This document shows positions 1 to 16,445 of a DNA stretch of 64,000 nucleotides, in pieces. Within the stretch, counting starts at the first letter, position 1. Every line of letters begins with the position of its first letter. The DNA lies in NCBI GenBank assembly GCA_016223085.1, contig JACRPS010000010.1, positions 124,001 through 188,000 of the forward strand, written 5' to 3'. Position numbers and translations under genes: made by a program. The stretch is from Chloroflexota bacterium (GTDB lineage Bacteria; Chloroflexota; Anaerolineae; Aggregatilineales; Phototrophicaceae). The notes beneath the pieces were generated by a model. The model saw nothing but the letters and a program-made list of their open reading frames with translations. It made no database searches and was not told the origin of the DNA.

Positions 1-161
1 TTGGCCTGGTGTTGCTGGCGCTGCTGGTGCTGCCCTGGCTGCACTTTGTAGCGACGGTCGAGGGCGAGTTTGAGCATCCGACCGTGTATCTGCCGCTGCC
101 GTTCGGGATGCTGGCGCTGTTGTGGCTGACCCGGCGGCGGTGGTGGGAGCGCGCCACGTGA
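1..161 (+). CDS. C-terminal end of a membrane protein (partial)
   Basis: The reading frame beginning at base 3 is open from the window edge to a TGA at 159-161 and encodes the last 52 residues of a protein. It shows a hydrophobic stretch (GLVLLALLVLPWLHF), a short polar loop, a second hydrophobic segment and a basic tail (TRRRWWERAT), which is the usual end of a polytopic membrane protein. The next gene probably starts at GTG 158, inside this stop (GTGA overlap), so the two are translationally coupled. By position it may be another member of the GT-C-like group that follows, but too little is visible to name it. Confidence 0.6.
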   Translation, partial: GLVLLALLVLPWLHFVATVEGEFEHPTVYLPLPFGMLALLWLTRRRWWERAT

Positions 162-1834
162 AACGCTTTCCGCTGCCGGTCTGGCTGTTTGCGCTGGCGC
201 TGGCGATTCTTACGTCGCTGCCGTATCTGGTCGGCTGGTGGAGCACGCCGGCAGGCTGGCAGTACAGCGGCGCGGCGGCAGTGCCGGTCGGCGCGCAGGT
301 GGATTTTAACAGCCATCTCGCTAAAATGTGGCAGGGCAGTCGCGGCCAGTGGGACTATCACCTGCTGTTCACGCACGAGCCGCATCCCGGCCTGCCGCTG
401 GTGCAGGGCTTTTACGTGGCGCTCGGCGCGCTGGCGCAGGTTACGCTGCTCAGCCTGCCCGCTGCGTACCATATCGCGCGGTTTATCCTCACAATTGGTC
501 TGGTGCTGGCGCTGTGGGCGTTCGCCAGCCATTTTCTGGAAAAACGGAGCGAACGCTGGCTGGCGCTGCTGTTTGGCACCATCGCCAGCGGGTGGAGCTG
601 GCTGCTGCTGGCGCTTGACCCGGCCATGACCGCGCAGCTTTCCCCGATTGAATTCTGGCTGACCGACGCCTTCAACCTGCTTGGCGCGTTTGTCATGCCG
701 CACTTCGCTGCGGTGGTGATCGTGCAGATTGTGATCGTGCTGGCGTTCGAGGGGTGGGTCAGAACCCCTCCCCCTGACTCCCTCTCCATACATGGACAGG
801 GGGGGCAGGTAGGGACACGATATATCGTGTCCCTACCGGTGATCGTACTGACTCTGGCGCTGGCGGCGCAGGCGATCATCCAGCCATATGCGGCGCTGCT
901 GTTTGGGCCGCTGCTGGTGATACTGGCGGGCTACCACGTCTTTTCGACGCAAAAGTTGTCACTCCGCCGCGCGCTGTGGCTGCTGCTGCCGCTTAACATT
1001 TATGCGGCGCTGATGCTGTACCAGTACGTGGCGTTACACAGCCATCCGGTCTGGAGTAGCTTTGCCGAGCAGAACCAAACCCTGTCACCGCTGGTGACAT
1101 ATTACCTCCTGGGTTATCTGCCGTTCATCCTCCCGATGGCGTTTGGCCTGCGCACTTTCCTGATGGACAGACCAGATGATCGCTGGTGGATGCCGATTCT
1201 ATGGGTGGCGCTGGTGGCGATGCTGCTGTACGCGCCGTTTCCGACGCAGCGACGTTATCTGCTAGGCGTACAGACGCCGCTGGCGATGCTGGCGGCTTAC
1301 GGCTGGTCGCGGGCCGTGCTGCCGTGCCTGTCGAGAAGGCTGCGTCCGCTGGCGTCCATCGTCTACTTTGGGCTGGCCTCGGTCGGGCTGATGGCTGTGA
1401 TTGCCGTGAATGCTGTGGCGCTGTCTCAGCCTGAAAGGCACACCGACGTATTTTACCAGCCCGATGAAGCGCGAGCATTCGACTGGCTGCGGCAGGAAAC
1501 CAATGATCGGAACGCGCTGGTGCTGACGGTGGCGGACGAATCCGGGCGCGGCAGCGGCGGGCGGCTGGTGGCGGCGCTGGGGCTGCGGGTGTACCTGGGG
1601 CACTGGATTGAAACGGCGGACTTTGCCGACAAAGTGGCAAACGTGCGCCACTTTTACGACCAGGCGACGACGGACGAGTGGCGCAAAACATTTCTTAAGG
1701 ATACGGGTGTTGCCTACATCTGGTATGATGAGTATGCCCGCGCGGTGGGGGATTGGAATCCGGCAGGCGCGGACTATCTGGAGCCGGTATTTACGTCTGA
1801 AAAGGTGACGATTTACCGGGTGAGCGGCCTGTAG
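158..1834 (+). CDS. polytopic membrane protein, GT-C glycosyltransferase-like
   Basis: About 558 residues with some ten or more hydrophobic segments and a soluble C-terminal part (from about residue 435), the arrangement of dolichyl-phosphate-mannose-type (GT-C) membrane glycosyltransferases. An extracytoplasmic loop after the first helix carries acidic and aromatic residues (VDFNSHLAKMW). I see no diagnostic motif that fixes the substrate. The open frame extends to GTG 122, but GTG 158 overlaps the stop of the upstream gene (GTGA) and gives a more natural N terminus (KRFPLPVWLFALALA), so 158 is preferred. Residues about 202-227 are encoded by an inserted palindromic repeat. It heads a run with the next two genes. 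Confidence 0.65.
   Translation: MKRFPLPVWLFALALAILTSLPYLVGWWSTPAGWQYSGAAAVPVGAQVDFNSHLAKMWQGSRGQWDYHLLFTHEPHPGLPLVQGFYVALGALAQVTLLSLPAAYHIARFILTIGLVLALWAFASHFLEKRSERWLALLFGTIASGWSWLLLALDPAMTAQLSPIEFWLTDAFNLLGAFVMPHFAAVVIVQIVIVLAFEGWVRTPPPDSLSIHGQGGQVGTRYIVSLPVIVLTLALAAQAIIQPYAALLFGPLLVILAGYHVFSTQKLSLRRALWLLLPLNIYAALMLYQYVALHSHPVWSSFAEQNQTLSPLVTYYLLGYLPFILPMAFGLRTFLMDRPDDRWWMPILWVALVAMLLYAPFPTQRRYLLGVQTPLAMLAAYGWSRAVLPCLSRRLRPLASIVYFGLASVGLMAVIAVNAVALSQPERHTDVFYQPDEARAFDWLRQETNDRNALVLTVADESGRGSGGRLVAALGLRVYLGHWIETADFADKVANVRHFYDQATTDEWRKTFLKDTGVAYIWYDEYARAVGDWNPAGADYLEPVFTSEKVTIYRVSGL
762..837 (+). repeat. composite palindromic repeat inserted in frame in a membrane-protein gene
   Basis: Two adjoining inverted repeats lie inside the coding frame. 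The first pairs 780-789 with 792-801 (one mismatch) and is part of a C-rich then G-rich element. The second, 808-837, is a perfect 30-base palindrome with GGTAGGGACACG at its foot. The frame stays open, adding a Pro/Gly-rich hydrophilic peptide (RTPPPDSLSIHGQGG) between two hydrophobic segments. Related palindromes occur at 2526-2553, 9900-9932, 16340-16367 and 16399-16424. Confidence 0.85.
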
Positions 1835-1844
1835 AGACAGTATT

Positions 1845-3497
1845 GTGTCCATTTCGCTTCGAGAACGTAGCCTGTTCGCTCTGATCGCCCTGATCGGCGC
1901 GCTGATTATCACGCGCGGACTGGCTGCCGCGCCATCGTTCACCGACGCTTTTTATCATCTCAACGCGGCCAACCGGCTGGTAACAGGCCAGGGATTAACT
2001 GACCCCTACCTGTGGACGTATATCGGCGCGCCGGACACGCTGCCCGCGCCGTCGCACCTGTACTGGATGCCACTGACATCGTTAACCGCCGCGTTTGGCA
2101 TGTGGATGCTGAACGCGCCAGGGGATTATGCCGCCGCGCAGTGGCCGTTCGCGCTGCTGTTCGCCGGGACAGTGTATGTGGGATTCTGGTTGGGCTGGCG
2201 CATCGGCGGGACGCGCCGCCAGGCCTGGGTGACCGGCCTGCTAACGCTGTTCGCCGGCTATTACACCCGCTTCTGGGGCGCGATTGACACCTTTGCACCG
2301 TATGCCTTTGTCGGGTCGCTGTGTCTGGTGTGGATGGGTTTAGCCCTCACCCCCCGACCCCCTCTTCCTCATAGAGAGGGGAAGCTAGAAAGGCGTACTC
2401 AATCACGCTTCGTTTATTGGACGTTGGCAGGAGCGTTCGCCGGGCTGGCGCACCTGACACGCGCCGATGGGGTGCTGCTGCTGATCGTGGGCTGGGCGGC
2501 GATATTCTGGCCCTGGGATAGACGTGTAGGGGCATGGCATGCCGTGCCCCTACGGATGCGCCTGACAAATGCGGCTGTCATGTCCCTCGCCTACCTGCTG
2601 GTGATGCTGCCCTGGTTCGCCCGCAACCTGAACGCCATCGGTTCGCTGCTGCCGCTCGGCGGGACGCAGGCGATCTGGTTCACTGAATACAACGATCTGT
2701 TTAACTACCCGCCTGATGCCAGTCCGGCGGCGTTTTTTGCGAATGGACTTGACACGCTCTTCCGAACGCGCTGGGAGGCGCTGGTCGGCGGGGGCGGGCT
2801 GCTGTCCGGCAACCTGGGGACGTTTGTCGCGGTCGAAGGGCTGGTGGTGATGACGCCGCTGATGCTGCTCGGCCTGTGGCAGCGGTGCTGCCAGCCGTTT
2901 TTGCGCGGCTTCTGGCTCTACGCCTTGGGGCTGCATCTGGTCATGACGCTGGTGTTCCCGTATCCGGGCTATCGCGGTGGACTGTTCCACTCGGCGGCGG
3001 CGCTGGTGCCCTGGTGGGCGGCGTTGGGCGTGGCCGGGCTGGACGACGCGGTAGACTGGGCGGCGAAGAAGCGGCGGCGCTGGAACGCGGCAACCGCCAA
3101 ACGCATGTTTTCGGCGGCGCTGGTGGGGGTGGCGGTGTATCTCAGTCTGGTCGTCGGGCTGGCGAACCGCGCTGTGCCGCGAGGGACACCGGCACTGTAC
3201 GACAAACTGCTTGAAATCCTGCCGCCGGATGCCCGCGTGCTGGTGAACGACCCGGCGCAGCTTTATTATTACACCGGCATGGGGGGCACGGTGCTGCCAA
3301 ACGAAGCGCCGGACGTGATTCCGGCGATTGCGCAGCAGTACGGCGTGGATTACGTGCTGCTGGAAGGGGTGACCGATGCTGGCCGTGCGAACGCAGCGCC
3401 CGCAAGGCTGTGGCCGATTTTGACCGAGGCGTATCCGTTCCTGACACCGGTTGAGTTGGATGTCGCGGGGGTGAAGCTGTATGCCATCCAACGCTGA
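1845..3497 (+). CDS. polytopic membrane protein, GT-C glycosyltransferase-like
   Basis: 550 residues starting at GTG 1845, ten bases after the previous stop. It has many hydrophobic segments, an early extracytoplasmic loop with an acidic residue (PSFTDAFYHLNAANRL) of the kind that holds the GT-C catalytic Asp, and a soluble C-terminal region (about 440-550) similar in layout to that of its upstream neighbour (LPPDARVLVNDP...YGVDYVLLEG). It is likely a paralogous lipid-linked-sugar transferase or a related membrane enzyme, acceptor unknown. Two in-frame repeat insertions encode residues about 167-180 (LTPRPPLPHREG) and 227-237 (VGAWHAVPLR). The end overlaps the next gene by 17 bases, indicating coupling. 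Confidence 0.65.
   Translation: MSISLRERSLFALIALIGALIITRGLAAAPSFTDAFYHLNAANRLVTGQGLTDPYLWTYIGAPDTLPAPSHLYWMPLTSLTAAFGMWMLNAPGDYAAAQWPFALLFAGTVYVGFWLGWRIGGTRRQAWVTGLLTLFAGYYTRFWGAIDTFAPYAFVGSLCLVWMGLALTPRPPLPHREGKLERRTQSRFVYWTLAGAFAGLAHLTRADGVLLLIVGWAAIFWPWDRRVGAWHAVPLRMRLTNAAVMSLAYLLVMLPWFARNLNAIGSLLPLGGTQAIWFTEYNDLFNYPPDASPAAFFANGLDTLFRTRWEALVGGGGLLSGNLGTFVAVEGLVVMTPLMLLGLWQRCCQPFLRGFWLYALGLHLVMTLVFPYPGYRGGLFHSAAALVPWWAALGVAGLDDAVDWAAKKRRRWNAATAKRMFSAALVGVAVYLSLVVGLANRAVPRGTPALYDKLLEILPPDARVLVNDPAQLYYYTGMGGTVLPNEAPDVIPAIAQQYGVDYVLLEGVTDAGRANAAPARLWPILTEAYPFLTPVELDVAGVKLYAIQR
2344..2385 (+). repeat. in-frame C-rich/G-rich inverted repeat
   Basis: A run of C-rich sequence followed by a G-rich one pairs 2359-2365 (CCCCTCT) with 2375-2381 (AGAGGGG). 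It is translated as LTPRPPLPHREG and resembles the first half of the element at 762-801 in base composition and order. It lies between hydrophobic segments and leaves the frame open. Confidence 0.75.
2526..2553 (+). repeat. GTAG-ended palindrome inserted in frame
   Basis: A 28-base palindrome with one mismatch, ends GTAGGGGC and GCCCCTAC, sits within the second GT-C-like gene and is translated as VGAWHAVPLR. Its ends match those of 16340-16367 and are close to 808-837 and 9900-9932, so it belongs to the same dispersed family. Confidence 0.85.
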
Positions 3498-5031
3498 CTC
3501 CCGCTTCTGGCGTCCGCGCGCTGCTGATGGGGTGCTGCTGGCGATGGCGGCGGCGGGTGTGCTGGTCTACGTGCTGACCGCTGACGGTGGCTTCCCGCTG
3601 GATGATAGCTGGATTCATCAGGTGTACGGGCGCAATCTGGCGCAGACCGGGCAGTGGGCGTTTGTGCCGGGCGTACCGAGCGCGGCTTCGACCTCGCCGC
3701 TGTACACCGTGCTGCTGGCGCTGGGCTACGCGCTCAACGTGCCGTTTAAGCTGTGGACGCACAGCCTCGGCGCGCTGGCGCTGGCGTTGACGGGTATGAT
3801 CGGCGCGCGGCTGGCGGAGCAACTGCTGCCGGAGCAGAAATACGCTGGCCTCATTACCGGGCTGGCGCTGGTGCTGGCCTGGCATCTGCTGTGGGCGGCG
3901 GCCTCCGGCATGGAAACAATGCTGTTCTGCCTGTGGACGCTGGTGCTAATCGCGCTGGCGCGGCGGGAAGTGGAGAGACACGGCAGCGCCACGTTCCGAC
4001 ATGGGTTTGCATTTGGCGTGGCGGCGGCACTGGCGACAATGACGCGGCCTGAAGCGATTGCGCTGGCAGGGTTGATCGGCGTCACGCTGTTGGGCGTTCG
4101 ACCTCAGGTGTCGTGGCGGGACTTTCTGATATGGAGCGCGGGCGCGGCGGTTGGCTTCGCCGTGTTTATCGCGCCGTACCTGCTGCTGAACGTGCGGCTT
4201 ACCGGCGGTCTGCTGCCGAATACTGCCGCCGCCAAGCAGGCGGAATACGCGCCGATTGCCGCCGCGCTGTCGTATCCGGCGCGCGTCTGGGAGATGGCAA
4301 AGCCGATCTTTGCGGGCGGGCAGGTCTTGCTGCTACCGGGGGTGGTGTATTATCTGATGCGGCTGGTACGCCGTCTGCGAACTGACCGAACGGCGCTGCT
4401 ATATCTGCTGCCGCTGGCCTGGGCGCTGGTGTTGATCGTGCTGTACGCGGCCCGGCTGCCGGCACCGTACCAGCACGGTCGTTACGTCCTCCCGGCGCTG
4501 CCGTCGCTAATTGTTTGCGGGGTAGCAGGTACGGTCTGGCTGCTGCGCGATGGCCGGCGGTCGCTGGCGGGGCGTGTCGTCAGCCGGTCGCTGGCGATTG
4601 CGGCGCTGCTGGCATTTGTGTATTTCGCGGTGGCGGGTGCGGGCATTTACAGCCGCGATGTGCGGATTATTGACGAGGAAATGGTTGCGGCGGCGCGGTG
4701 GATTGCCACGAATATCCCGCCGGAAGAACGGCTGGCCGTCCACGACATTGGCGCGGTGGGCTACTTCGCGCCGCGACCGATTCTCGATCTGGCGGGGCTG
4801 GTCAGCCCGGAAATCGTGCCGTTCATCCGCGACGGCGAGCAGCTATGGAATTGGCTGCGCCAGAACGACGCCCGCTATCTGATGGCCTTCCCGGACCAGA
4901 TACCCGGCAAAAATGTGGACGATTCGCGGTTGTGCCGGGTGTTTGTGACGGACGGTCAGGCATCGCTGGCGGCAGGCGGCCCCAACATGGCGGTGTACGC
5001 GCTGGCCTGGGATGGACGCTGTCCGGGTTAA
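3481..5031 (+). CDS. polytopic membrane protein, glycosyltransferase family 39-like
   Basis: 516 residues, ATG start 17 bases inside the preceding gene. After the first membrane helix a loop reads PLDDSWIHQVYGRNLAQTG; an Asp-Asp or Asp-Glu pair in this first extracytoplasmic loop is the catalytic feature of GT39/ArnT-like GT-C enzymes. About ten membrane segments follow, then a soluble tail (about 395-516) with LAVHDIGAVGYFAPRPILDLAGLVSPE, a pattern often seen at the end of bacterial mannosyltransferase-like proteins. The three-gene group may build a surface glycan or glycosylate exported proteins such as the Tad proteins downstream; that link is inference only. Confidence 0.7.
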   Translation: MPSNADSRFWRPRAADGVLLAMAAAGVLVYVLTADGGFPLDDSWIHQVYGRNLAQTGQWAFVPGVPSAASTSPLYTVLLALGYALNVPFKLWTHSLGALALALTGMIGARLAEQLLPEQKYAGLITGLALVLAWHLLWAAASGMETMLFCLWTLVLIALARREVERHGSATFRHGFAFGVAAALATMTRPEAIALAGLIGVTLLGVRPQVSWRDFLIWSAGAAVGFAVFIAPYLLLNVRLTGGLLPNTAAAKQAEYAPIAAALSYPARVWEMAKPIFAGGQVLLLPGVVYYLMRLVRRLRTDRTALLYLLPLAWALVLIVLYAARLPAPYQHGRYVLPALPSLIVCGVAGTVWLLRDGRRSLAGRVVSRSLAIAALLAFVYFAVAGAGIYSRDVRIIDEEMVAAARWIATNIPPEERLAVHDIGAVGYFAPRPILDLAGLVSPEIVPFIRDGEQLWNWLRQNDARYLMAFPDQIPGKNVDDSRLCRVFVTDGQASLAAGGPNMAVYALAWDGRCPG

Positions 5032-9899: not shown

Positions 9900-9932
9900 T
9901 TGTAAGGACACGATCTAATCGTGTCCCTACAA
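9900..9932. repeat. GTAG-type palindromic repeat
   Basis: Arms 9900-9914 and 9918-9932 are complementary apart from one pair, with a three-base centre. The inner core GGACACGAT/ATCGTGTCC is shared with 808-837 and with 16399-16424. It lies directly after the regulator gene. Confidence 0.8.
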
Positions 9933-16367: not shown

Positions 16368-16398
16368 GGAACATTCTCGTATTGATTCACCGATGAGG

Positions 16399-16424
16399 CC
16401 GGGACACGATTGATCGTGTCCCGG
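16399..16424. repeat. palindromic repeat, possible bidirectional terminator
   Basis: Perfect twelve-base arms CCGGGACACGAT / ATCGTGTCCCGG around TG. The core GGGACACGAT is shared with 808-837 and 9900-9932. It lies between the convergent genes ending at 16324 and 16446 and may help end both transcripts, although there is no long T run. Confidence 0.75.
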
Positions 16425-16445
16425 TTGCTTCTCCGACCGAACGGT

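Follow-up and report, generated by a model that had tools for sequence, protein, structure and literature searches.

Palindromic repeats in frame within genes of a Chloroflexota bacterium are probably the survivors of selection on dispersed elements

We analyzed a 64,000-nucleotide stretch of the genome of a Chloroflexota bacterium (the window; contig JACRPS010000010.1, positions 124,001 to 188,000, or G000:C33:124001-188000 in our numbering of genomes and contigs), and in particular the short palindromic repeats inside two adjacent genes near its start. The genome assembly comprises 6,025,450 bases (6.03 Mb) in 37 contigs. Orthologues share 76-47% identity with gene 1, for which a GTG at 152 is an alternative start, and 75-58% with gene 2. 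The repeats belong to two families: family A, a C-rich hairpin, and family B, a repetitive extragenic palindrome (REP)-like element with a 28-bp palindrome. Gene 1 carries one element of each (766-803 and 809-836), as does gene 2 (2345-2383 and 2526-2553). An original prediction, made from the letters of the window, described three palindromic segments here with shared repeat ends. The segments are real and far above chance, with two amendments: 762-837 is a family-A hairpin followed by a family-B REP, and the shared ends are those of 809-836 and 2526-2553, while 2344-2385 belongs to family A. As had been proposed, the elements keep the frame of the open reading frames (ORFs) at 122-1834 and 1845-3497. 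A perfect inverted repeat spans 808-837, and the exact 28-mer of 809-836 is found many times over in the genome.

Table 1. Coordinates of genes and repeats in the window, and transposase loci in related genomes.
Feature	Position	Strand	Sequence	Translation	Basis or remark
Gene 1, multi-pass membrane protein	122..1834	+			ORF, 570 codons counted from first start; hydropathy; orthologues
Family-A C-rich hairpin	766..803	+		TPPPDSLSIHGQG	profile match, E 2e-7
Family-B REP, perfect 28-bp palindrome	809..836	+	GTAGGGACACGATATATCGTGTCCCTAC	VGTRYIVSLP	phase GTA-GGG
Gene 2, multi-pass membrane protein, 550 aa	1845..3497	+			ORF; hydropathy; orthologues
Family-A hairpin	2345..2383	+		ALTPRPPLPHREGK	profile match, E 2e-6
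Family-B REP, 1 mismatched pair of 14	2526..2553	+	GTAGGGGCATGGCATGCCGTGCCCCTAC	VGAWHAVPLR	phase GTA-GGG
Degenerate REP-like palindrome	9900..9932	.	TTGTAAGGACACG..CGTGTCCCTACAA		intergenic
Degenerate REP-like palindrome	16398..16425	.	GCCGGGACACGATTGATCGTGTCCCGGT		intergenic, convergent genes on both sides
TnpA loci with flanking palindromes	L353, L354, L355, L357, L358, L362, L375				in relatives

The peptides encoded by the elements had been predicted to be hydrophilic and to lie in loops between membrane helices. Hydrophilic character is found in the family-A peptides (mean Kyte-Doolittle values of -0.73 and -0.93); the REP peptides VGTRYIVSLP (+0.74) and VGAWHAVPLR (+0.52) are mildly hydrophobic. 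Placement in loops, judged by hydropathy, would fit the peptide of 2526-2553 (residues 228-237), which sits between hydrophobic stretches that end at 225 and resume at 238. The other two overlap such stretches: that of 2344-2385 (residues 167-181) overlaps a stretch ending at 170, with the next beginning at 197, and that of 762-837 (residues 204-229) overlaps one reaching 207 and the next from 218.

We found that family B is abundant in this genome. The pattern GTAGGGN{12,24}CCCTAC (24-36 bp) has 744 copies, versus 7 for the reversed control pattern, bearing out the expectation that the repeats recur elsewhere; the pattern demands GTAG facing CTAC, and one-ended copies fall outside these counts. 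Among 60 relatives, the same pattern is most frequent in G036 (285), followed by G013 (180), G021 (123), and G047 (100), with medians of 6 over all 61 genomes of the order and 22.5 over 16 relatives of the same genus; the relatives' counts may be low because many of their assemblies are fragmented. The genome G038 has different inner stems between the same ends, for example GTAGGGGCGTATTGCAATACGCCCCTAC. Family A is far sparser, with 2 matches genome-wide at up to 2 mismatches and 9 at up to 3.

Positions relative to genes were determined in a sample of 1,433,017 bp, covering contigs C33, C17, and C22 in full and contig C12 up to 400 kb from its start, in which genes called with a home-made hexamer finder gave a coding fraction of 86-91%. 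Counting as internal a REP inside a gene with at least 30 bases to either side, we classed 16 of the sample's 174 strict REPs as internal, 21 as touching a gene end, and 137 as intergenic. REPs are thus strongly depleted from genes. Spacers between divergent genes hold 13 REPs in 43 kb, those between convergent genes 32 in 23 kb, and those between genes of the same direction 90 in 89 kb; the remaining two REPs had no gene on one side. An iterated profile for family A found 13 copies in the same 1.43 Mb, five inside genes, one touching a gene, and seven intergenic, and three of the five intragenic copies fall in a 6-kb region (C33:121439-127497), each in a gene of its own, with the first two of these genes separated by one other. 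Among the 21 REPs at gene ends, a hand count from our list gives 14 whose GTAG supplies the TAG stop codon of the gene, and REPs in this position may therefore trim C-termini.

Internal REPs show a strong bias in reading phase. Two of the three phases of the 28-mer are free of stops and the third contains a TAG stop. Phase GTA-GGG, which encodes peptides beginning VG, is used by 14 of the 16 internal REPs: all 13 internal 28-mers and one copy of 29 bp, with the two other internal 29-bp REPs in phase xGT-AGG. Because a gene finder never lists a frame-breaking copy as internal, we also ran a test that does not require an ORF across the repeat, and asks only that both flanks be coding-like and free of stops. 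With 150 bases per side, 15 of the 174 REPs were flanked by coding-like sequence on both sides, compared with 1862 of 3000 random 28-base windows (1833 with the same frame on both sides and 29 with different frames; 1138 were not coding on both sides). Eleven of these 15 REPs had one frame across both flanks and a stop-free phase, one had one frame and the TAG phase, and three had a change of frame; the corresponding counts were 11, 1, and 2 with 210 bases per side and 11, 1, and 3 with 300. The REPs with a change of frame between their flanks may mark gene borders.

We compared protein lengths at the sites of internal elements with those of orthologues, a set that excludes G008. At 762-837, 11 of 15 orthologues are shorter by 17-21 residues and two by 7-9, and two (G006 and G007) are longer by 5. 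The family-A profile matches G006 (E 1.4e-5) and G007 (E 0.033) at the site of 766-803, and the orthologues shorter by 17-21 residues lack the element. At 2344-2385, 16 of 17 orthologues are shorter by 9-16 residues, and the last, from G013, has a similar insert. The alignments show in-frame gains at both places, in agreement with the insertion originally predicted. In Maf, 25 of 26 orthologues are shorter by 8-13 residues and that of G013 is longer by 3, and the REP of this gene is a clear, plain gain. In no aligned orthologue does the peptide of an element occur unaccompanied by a similar repeat in the DNA; one row of the gene 1 alignment (L029), read in a wrong frame, is disregarded.

The 16 internal REPs are spread over 15 genes, which we named by Pfam matches at E up to 0.001; six, including both window genes, have no match at that threshold. 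In three multidomain proteins the REP falls between domains: a fused GlyQ-GlyS glycyl-tRNA synthetase (GlyRS), with the REP at residue 307 between its two parts, a fusion of GT9 and WecG, and a TIR/FGE-sulfatase protein. DnaG carries a REP at residue 488, past the Toprim domain, one PMT_2 protein hosts two REPs and another PMT_2 protein one more, and 3-dehydroquinate synthase (AroB) is also among the hosts. Outside the sample, a methionyl-tRNA synthetase gene that adjoins a TnpA gene (L070:459-486, G000:C10) has an in-frame REP translated as VGTRHAVSLQ just before KFSKS, and the nearest relative of this enzyme in the PDB has five residues fewer at the site. In-frame repeats in this genome also reach core genes, those for AroB, DnaG, Maf, and the synthetases of glycyl- and methionyl-tRNA.

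Our preferred explanation is that dispersed palindromes enter genes and that selection spares the copies that keep the frame in tolerant places, a reading to which we give a probability of roughly 0.8. Two families of short self-complementary repeats would have spread across the genome, probably moving as single-stranded hairpins with the help of an enzyme, and selection would remove nearly all copies that land in genes. The survivors would be those that preserve the frame, are not in the phase where GTAG yields a TAG stop, and occupy loops, linkers between domains, or other positions that tolerate them, where they would be translated as ordinary protein sequence; the host proteins are presumably made and the inserts close to neutral. 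The two adjacent membrane-protein genes of the window would hold four of these survivors, at 766-803, 809-836, 2345-2383, and 2526-2553. We favor this explanation because of the excess of palindromes over the control, the scarcity of internal copies in a sample that is mostly coding, the bias toward GTA-GGG, the results of the flank test that is independent of ORF calls, the clear gains, and the position of REPs between domains in the GlyQS, TIR/FGE-sulfatase, and GT9-WecG proteins. The 744 copies in one genome form a large natural set for studying how hairpin repeats that are non-autonomous get into genes and come to be part of proteins.

Several observations weigh against this explanation. 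Some concern placement: the REPs in Maf and HypF lie within a Pfam domain, which would be folded, and by hydropathy 809-836 sits at the start of a hydrophobic stretch. Others concern length, since a REP codes for 9-10 residues and simple insertion does not predict changes that are near zero or smaller than the REP. At 2526-2553, the 17 orthologues range from 8 residues shorter to 1 longer (median -5), which is below the REP's own length: three at 72-73% identity have no REP and are 5 residues shorter, several others deviate by at most 1 residue or not at all, and G013 is equal in length with REP-like sequence in place. The alignments argue more weakly for an in-frame gain here than at the other two window segments. 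Median differences are -2 for GlyRS (17 orthologues), -1 for DnaG (three), -1 and 0 for the two sites of the PMT_2 protein (nine each, with +20 once at the first), and -3 for HypF (13, range -6 to +19). At some of these sites the REP seems, from the alignments, to have taken the place of existing codons instead of contributing extra ones. Finally, none of the three Y1_Tnp matches in the genome reaches the RAYT (REP-associated tyrosine transposase) cut-off.

The last point bears on a possible alternative that we consider doubtful, in which a transposase of the RAYT or TnpA kind moves the REPs and the intragenic copies are its insertions. Two of the Y1_Tnp matches are short TnpA proteins that pass the IS200 cut-off of 55 (scores of 94 and 97) and fail the RAYT cut-off of 80 bits (34.6 and 25.7); the third is a 608-residue protein under the IS200 cut-off. 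Both short proteins have the HIH motif of HUH-tyrosine transposases and a Y---Q--HH motif, as YIASQKEHH and YIENQKAHH, and their genes adjoin the same REP-centered composite; with loose matching, this composite is seen at 10 of the 174 REPs. Genomes with a Y1_Tnp match of at least 69 bits also have more REPs (25 genomes with a median of 15, against 36 with a median of 4; p = 0.008, in a comparison that includes our own genome and is uncorrected for kinship). Set against this association, the REP-rich genomes G036 and G013 have a Y1 match only as a long ORF. We fetched 36 TnpA loci from relatives, six of which had no recognized ORF; searched for strict GTAG REPs only, the fetched stretch contained one at just 1 of the 30 readable loci. 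The failed cut-off, the single locus in 30, and these two genomes weaken the case for a RAYT as the mobilizer, and we keep it as a rival.

We give less credence to rewriting in place, in which some intragenic REPs replaced a similar number of bases, often over an older and decayed REP, either through gene conversion or because a single-stranded REP anneals at the replication fork. A replacement of similar length would keep frame and length automatically, without a sieve of failed insertions, and the near-zero net changes in GlyRS, DnaG, and the two sites of the PMT_2 protein fit it. So does REP-like sequence at the same coding places in relatives. We scored orthologous segments against 126 REPs of our own genome on both strands, with other windows of the same gene as the control, and of 72 comparisons nine fell below 0.05 and seven below 0.01. 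Scores exceeded all controls for GlyRS in G005 (22/28), G006 (21/28), and G001 (24/28, a full palindrome), for Maf in G013 (24/28), and for the PMT_2-protein site in G004 (21/28, control maximum 16), although protein homology alone adds to the GlyRS scores of G005 and G006. The 2526-2553 site in G013 scored 18/28 with a control maximum of 17, a margin of one base; with the same margin in G011 (18 versus 17), we do not claim a shared REP in Maf. Our own copies at the shared sites are intact palindromes, although their host proteins differ by 18-46% from those of the relatives. In one spacer (C12:226861), alignments place REP-like palindromes of differing sequence at the same position in G005 and G007, and a REP at C12:224393 is missing in G005 and G006. 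Either REPs would return to the same places or existing REPs would be rewritten.

Other results count against rewriting. Maf, 762-837, and 2344-2385 are plain gains; loops and linkers vary in length regardless; and the relatives, at 54-82% protein identity, are too distant for proof at the level of bases. Remnants of self-complementarity, scored by themselves, were at about chance level (four of 69 comparisons below 0.05, and one, the GlyRS of G001 with 12/14, below 0.01), and we found no pair of an occupied and an empty site within the sampled part of our own genome. We therefore think it improbable that REPs of this lineage propagate partly by length-conserving replacement, core-gene codons included, rather than by insertion. 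If they do, replacement would refresh orthologous sites to the current repeat type as their flanks diverge, repeats would edit coding sequence without frameshift, and the spread of REPs would be directly testable.

A far less probable alternative is that the inserts were selected as new loops useful to their host proteins. G006 and G007 have the family-A insert of gene 1 in the same position and G013 shares the inserts of gene 2, and the inserts would therefore have lasted since these species separated; however, the functions of the hosts are unrelated, and REPs are strongly depleted from genes. Least likely, to the point of being negligible, are palindromes that arose by chance in C-rich loops or an artifact of the assembly, since the 37-contig assembly and the capacity of low-complexity loops to mimic palindromes are outweighed by the excess over the reversed control and by related same-site inserts in separately assembled genomes.

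RPE-1, a Rickettsia palindromic element (RPE), is 100-150 bp in size. The original prediction likened the window's elements to RPEs, and the likeness holds for their behavior: intragenic RPEs are in-frame and stop-free, a feature that our REPs share, and, as cited in Di Nocera 2013 (PMC3733652), they are in-frame palindromic repeats with hosts of many functions. We recognize two families in the window, neither shown to be an RPE, and we assign no RPE membership; by terminal motif as described there, the R. conorii RPE ends in CGTC, as opposed to GTAG/CTAC here. The same text describes GTAG and CGTC REPs, TAG stops derived from REPs, REPs inside genes, REPs near the same recB site in two Xanthomonas species, and Chloroflexi among the phyla with GTAG REPs. 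As described there, GTAG REPs resemble ours as high-copy palindromes of 20-40 bp with a GTAG end that are mostly intergenic, scarce in divergent spacers, and able to supply TAG as a neighbor's stop codon, with some intragenic copies that include replication, repair, and synthetase genes. They differ in that GTAG is unpaired and at one end, whereas here it pairs with CTAC, which makes the element symmetric, and in their association with RAYT genes, whereas here no protein passes the RAYT cut-off. The original prediction was right in kind, but in-frame REPs within genes were already known from that published text. New here are the symmetry of the REPs, the lack in this genome of a protein passing the RAYT cut-off, the occurrence of the REPs in a lineage for which we found no such report, and a clear view of which intragenic copies selection lets through; the apparent near-constancy of protein length at several REP sites is unusual. 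Our literature search, mostly outside subscription journals, yielded no report of REPs in Aggregatilineales among the matches listed, and a search for GTAGGGGC yielded, by title, none on this repeat among the matches listed.

Two further systems offer partial parallels. Palindromic elements in the Wolbachia genes addA, addB, and priA are likened to ours by their description in PMC4224334, as in-frame, stop-free insertions in genes that are apparently still functional; the named regions are longer, at 171-843 nt by coordinates. The two short TnpA proteins share the Y---Q--HH and HIH motifs with TnpA subclass 1.2 and differ from TnpA-REP class 2, which has a Y---NP motif, as these groups are characterized in PMC6006769. 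According to that paper, subclass 1.2 generally lacks IS200 end structures and comes mostly from Cyanobacteria and Bacteroidetes. Among the readable TnpA loci of relatives, 17 of 30 have the Y---Q--HH motif. The short Y1 transposases of relatives are often flanked by palindromes with a CAA-type loop, for example GCCCCGGGTTCAAAACCCGGGGC, some in two copies, and these may act as partner hairpins for a subclass of transposases that has been described without insertion sequence ends.

Some REPs form the center of a longer inverted repeat, CTATCCATAAACC..GGTTTACGGATAG (L069:1380-1460, L070:1905-1990, and 10 sampled places), and a second composite, TGAAAACCGATAC..GTTTTCGGTCATCCAT, encloses some 29-bp REPs. 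In the gene 2 orthologue of G008 (L062, G008:C478), the same two loops each contain a large insert that is in frame and differs in sequence. We rejected a hot spot shared with G008: the family-A match at the second loop is weak (E 0.015), and the REP-like piece at the first, with 18/28, does not outscore five other windows taken from that stretch, so that we make no REP claim for G008. Further orthologues of gene 2 (G001:C188, G001:C159, and G009:C71) end at contig edges near the insert sites, as if repeats had broken those assemblies.

The two window genes, which the original prediction called GT-C-like (GT-C being a class of membrane glycosyltransferases), themselves gave few database matches. 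Neither protein matched Pfam at E up to 1, profiles of the two matched nothing in the PDB at E up to 10, and Rfam found no match over positions 1-5000 of the window; single-sequence structure models reached predicted local distance difference test (pLDDT) scores of 44.7 and 42.5, too low for use. Pfam searches with the 16 members of each alignment found DUF6541 in six members for gene 2, with PMT_2 in two and PMT in one, both weak, and for gene 1 weak matches only (DUF4229 in 3/16, Tsi3 in 2/16, and DUF6798 in 1/16). The gene at C33:121439-122962, upstream of gene 1, matches PMT_2 with E = 1.8e-18.

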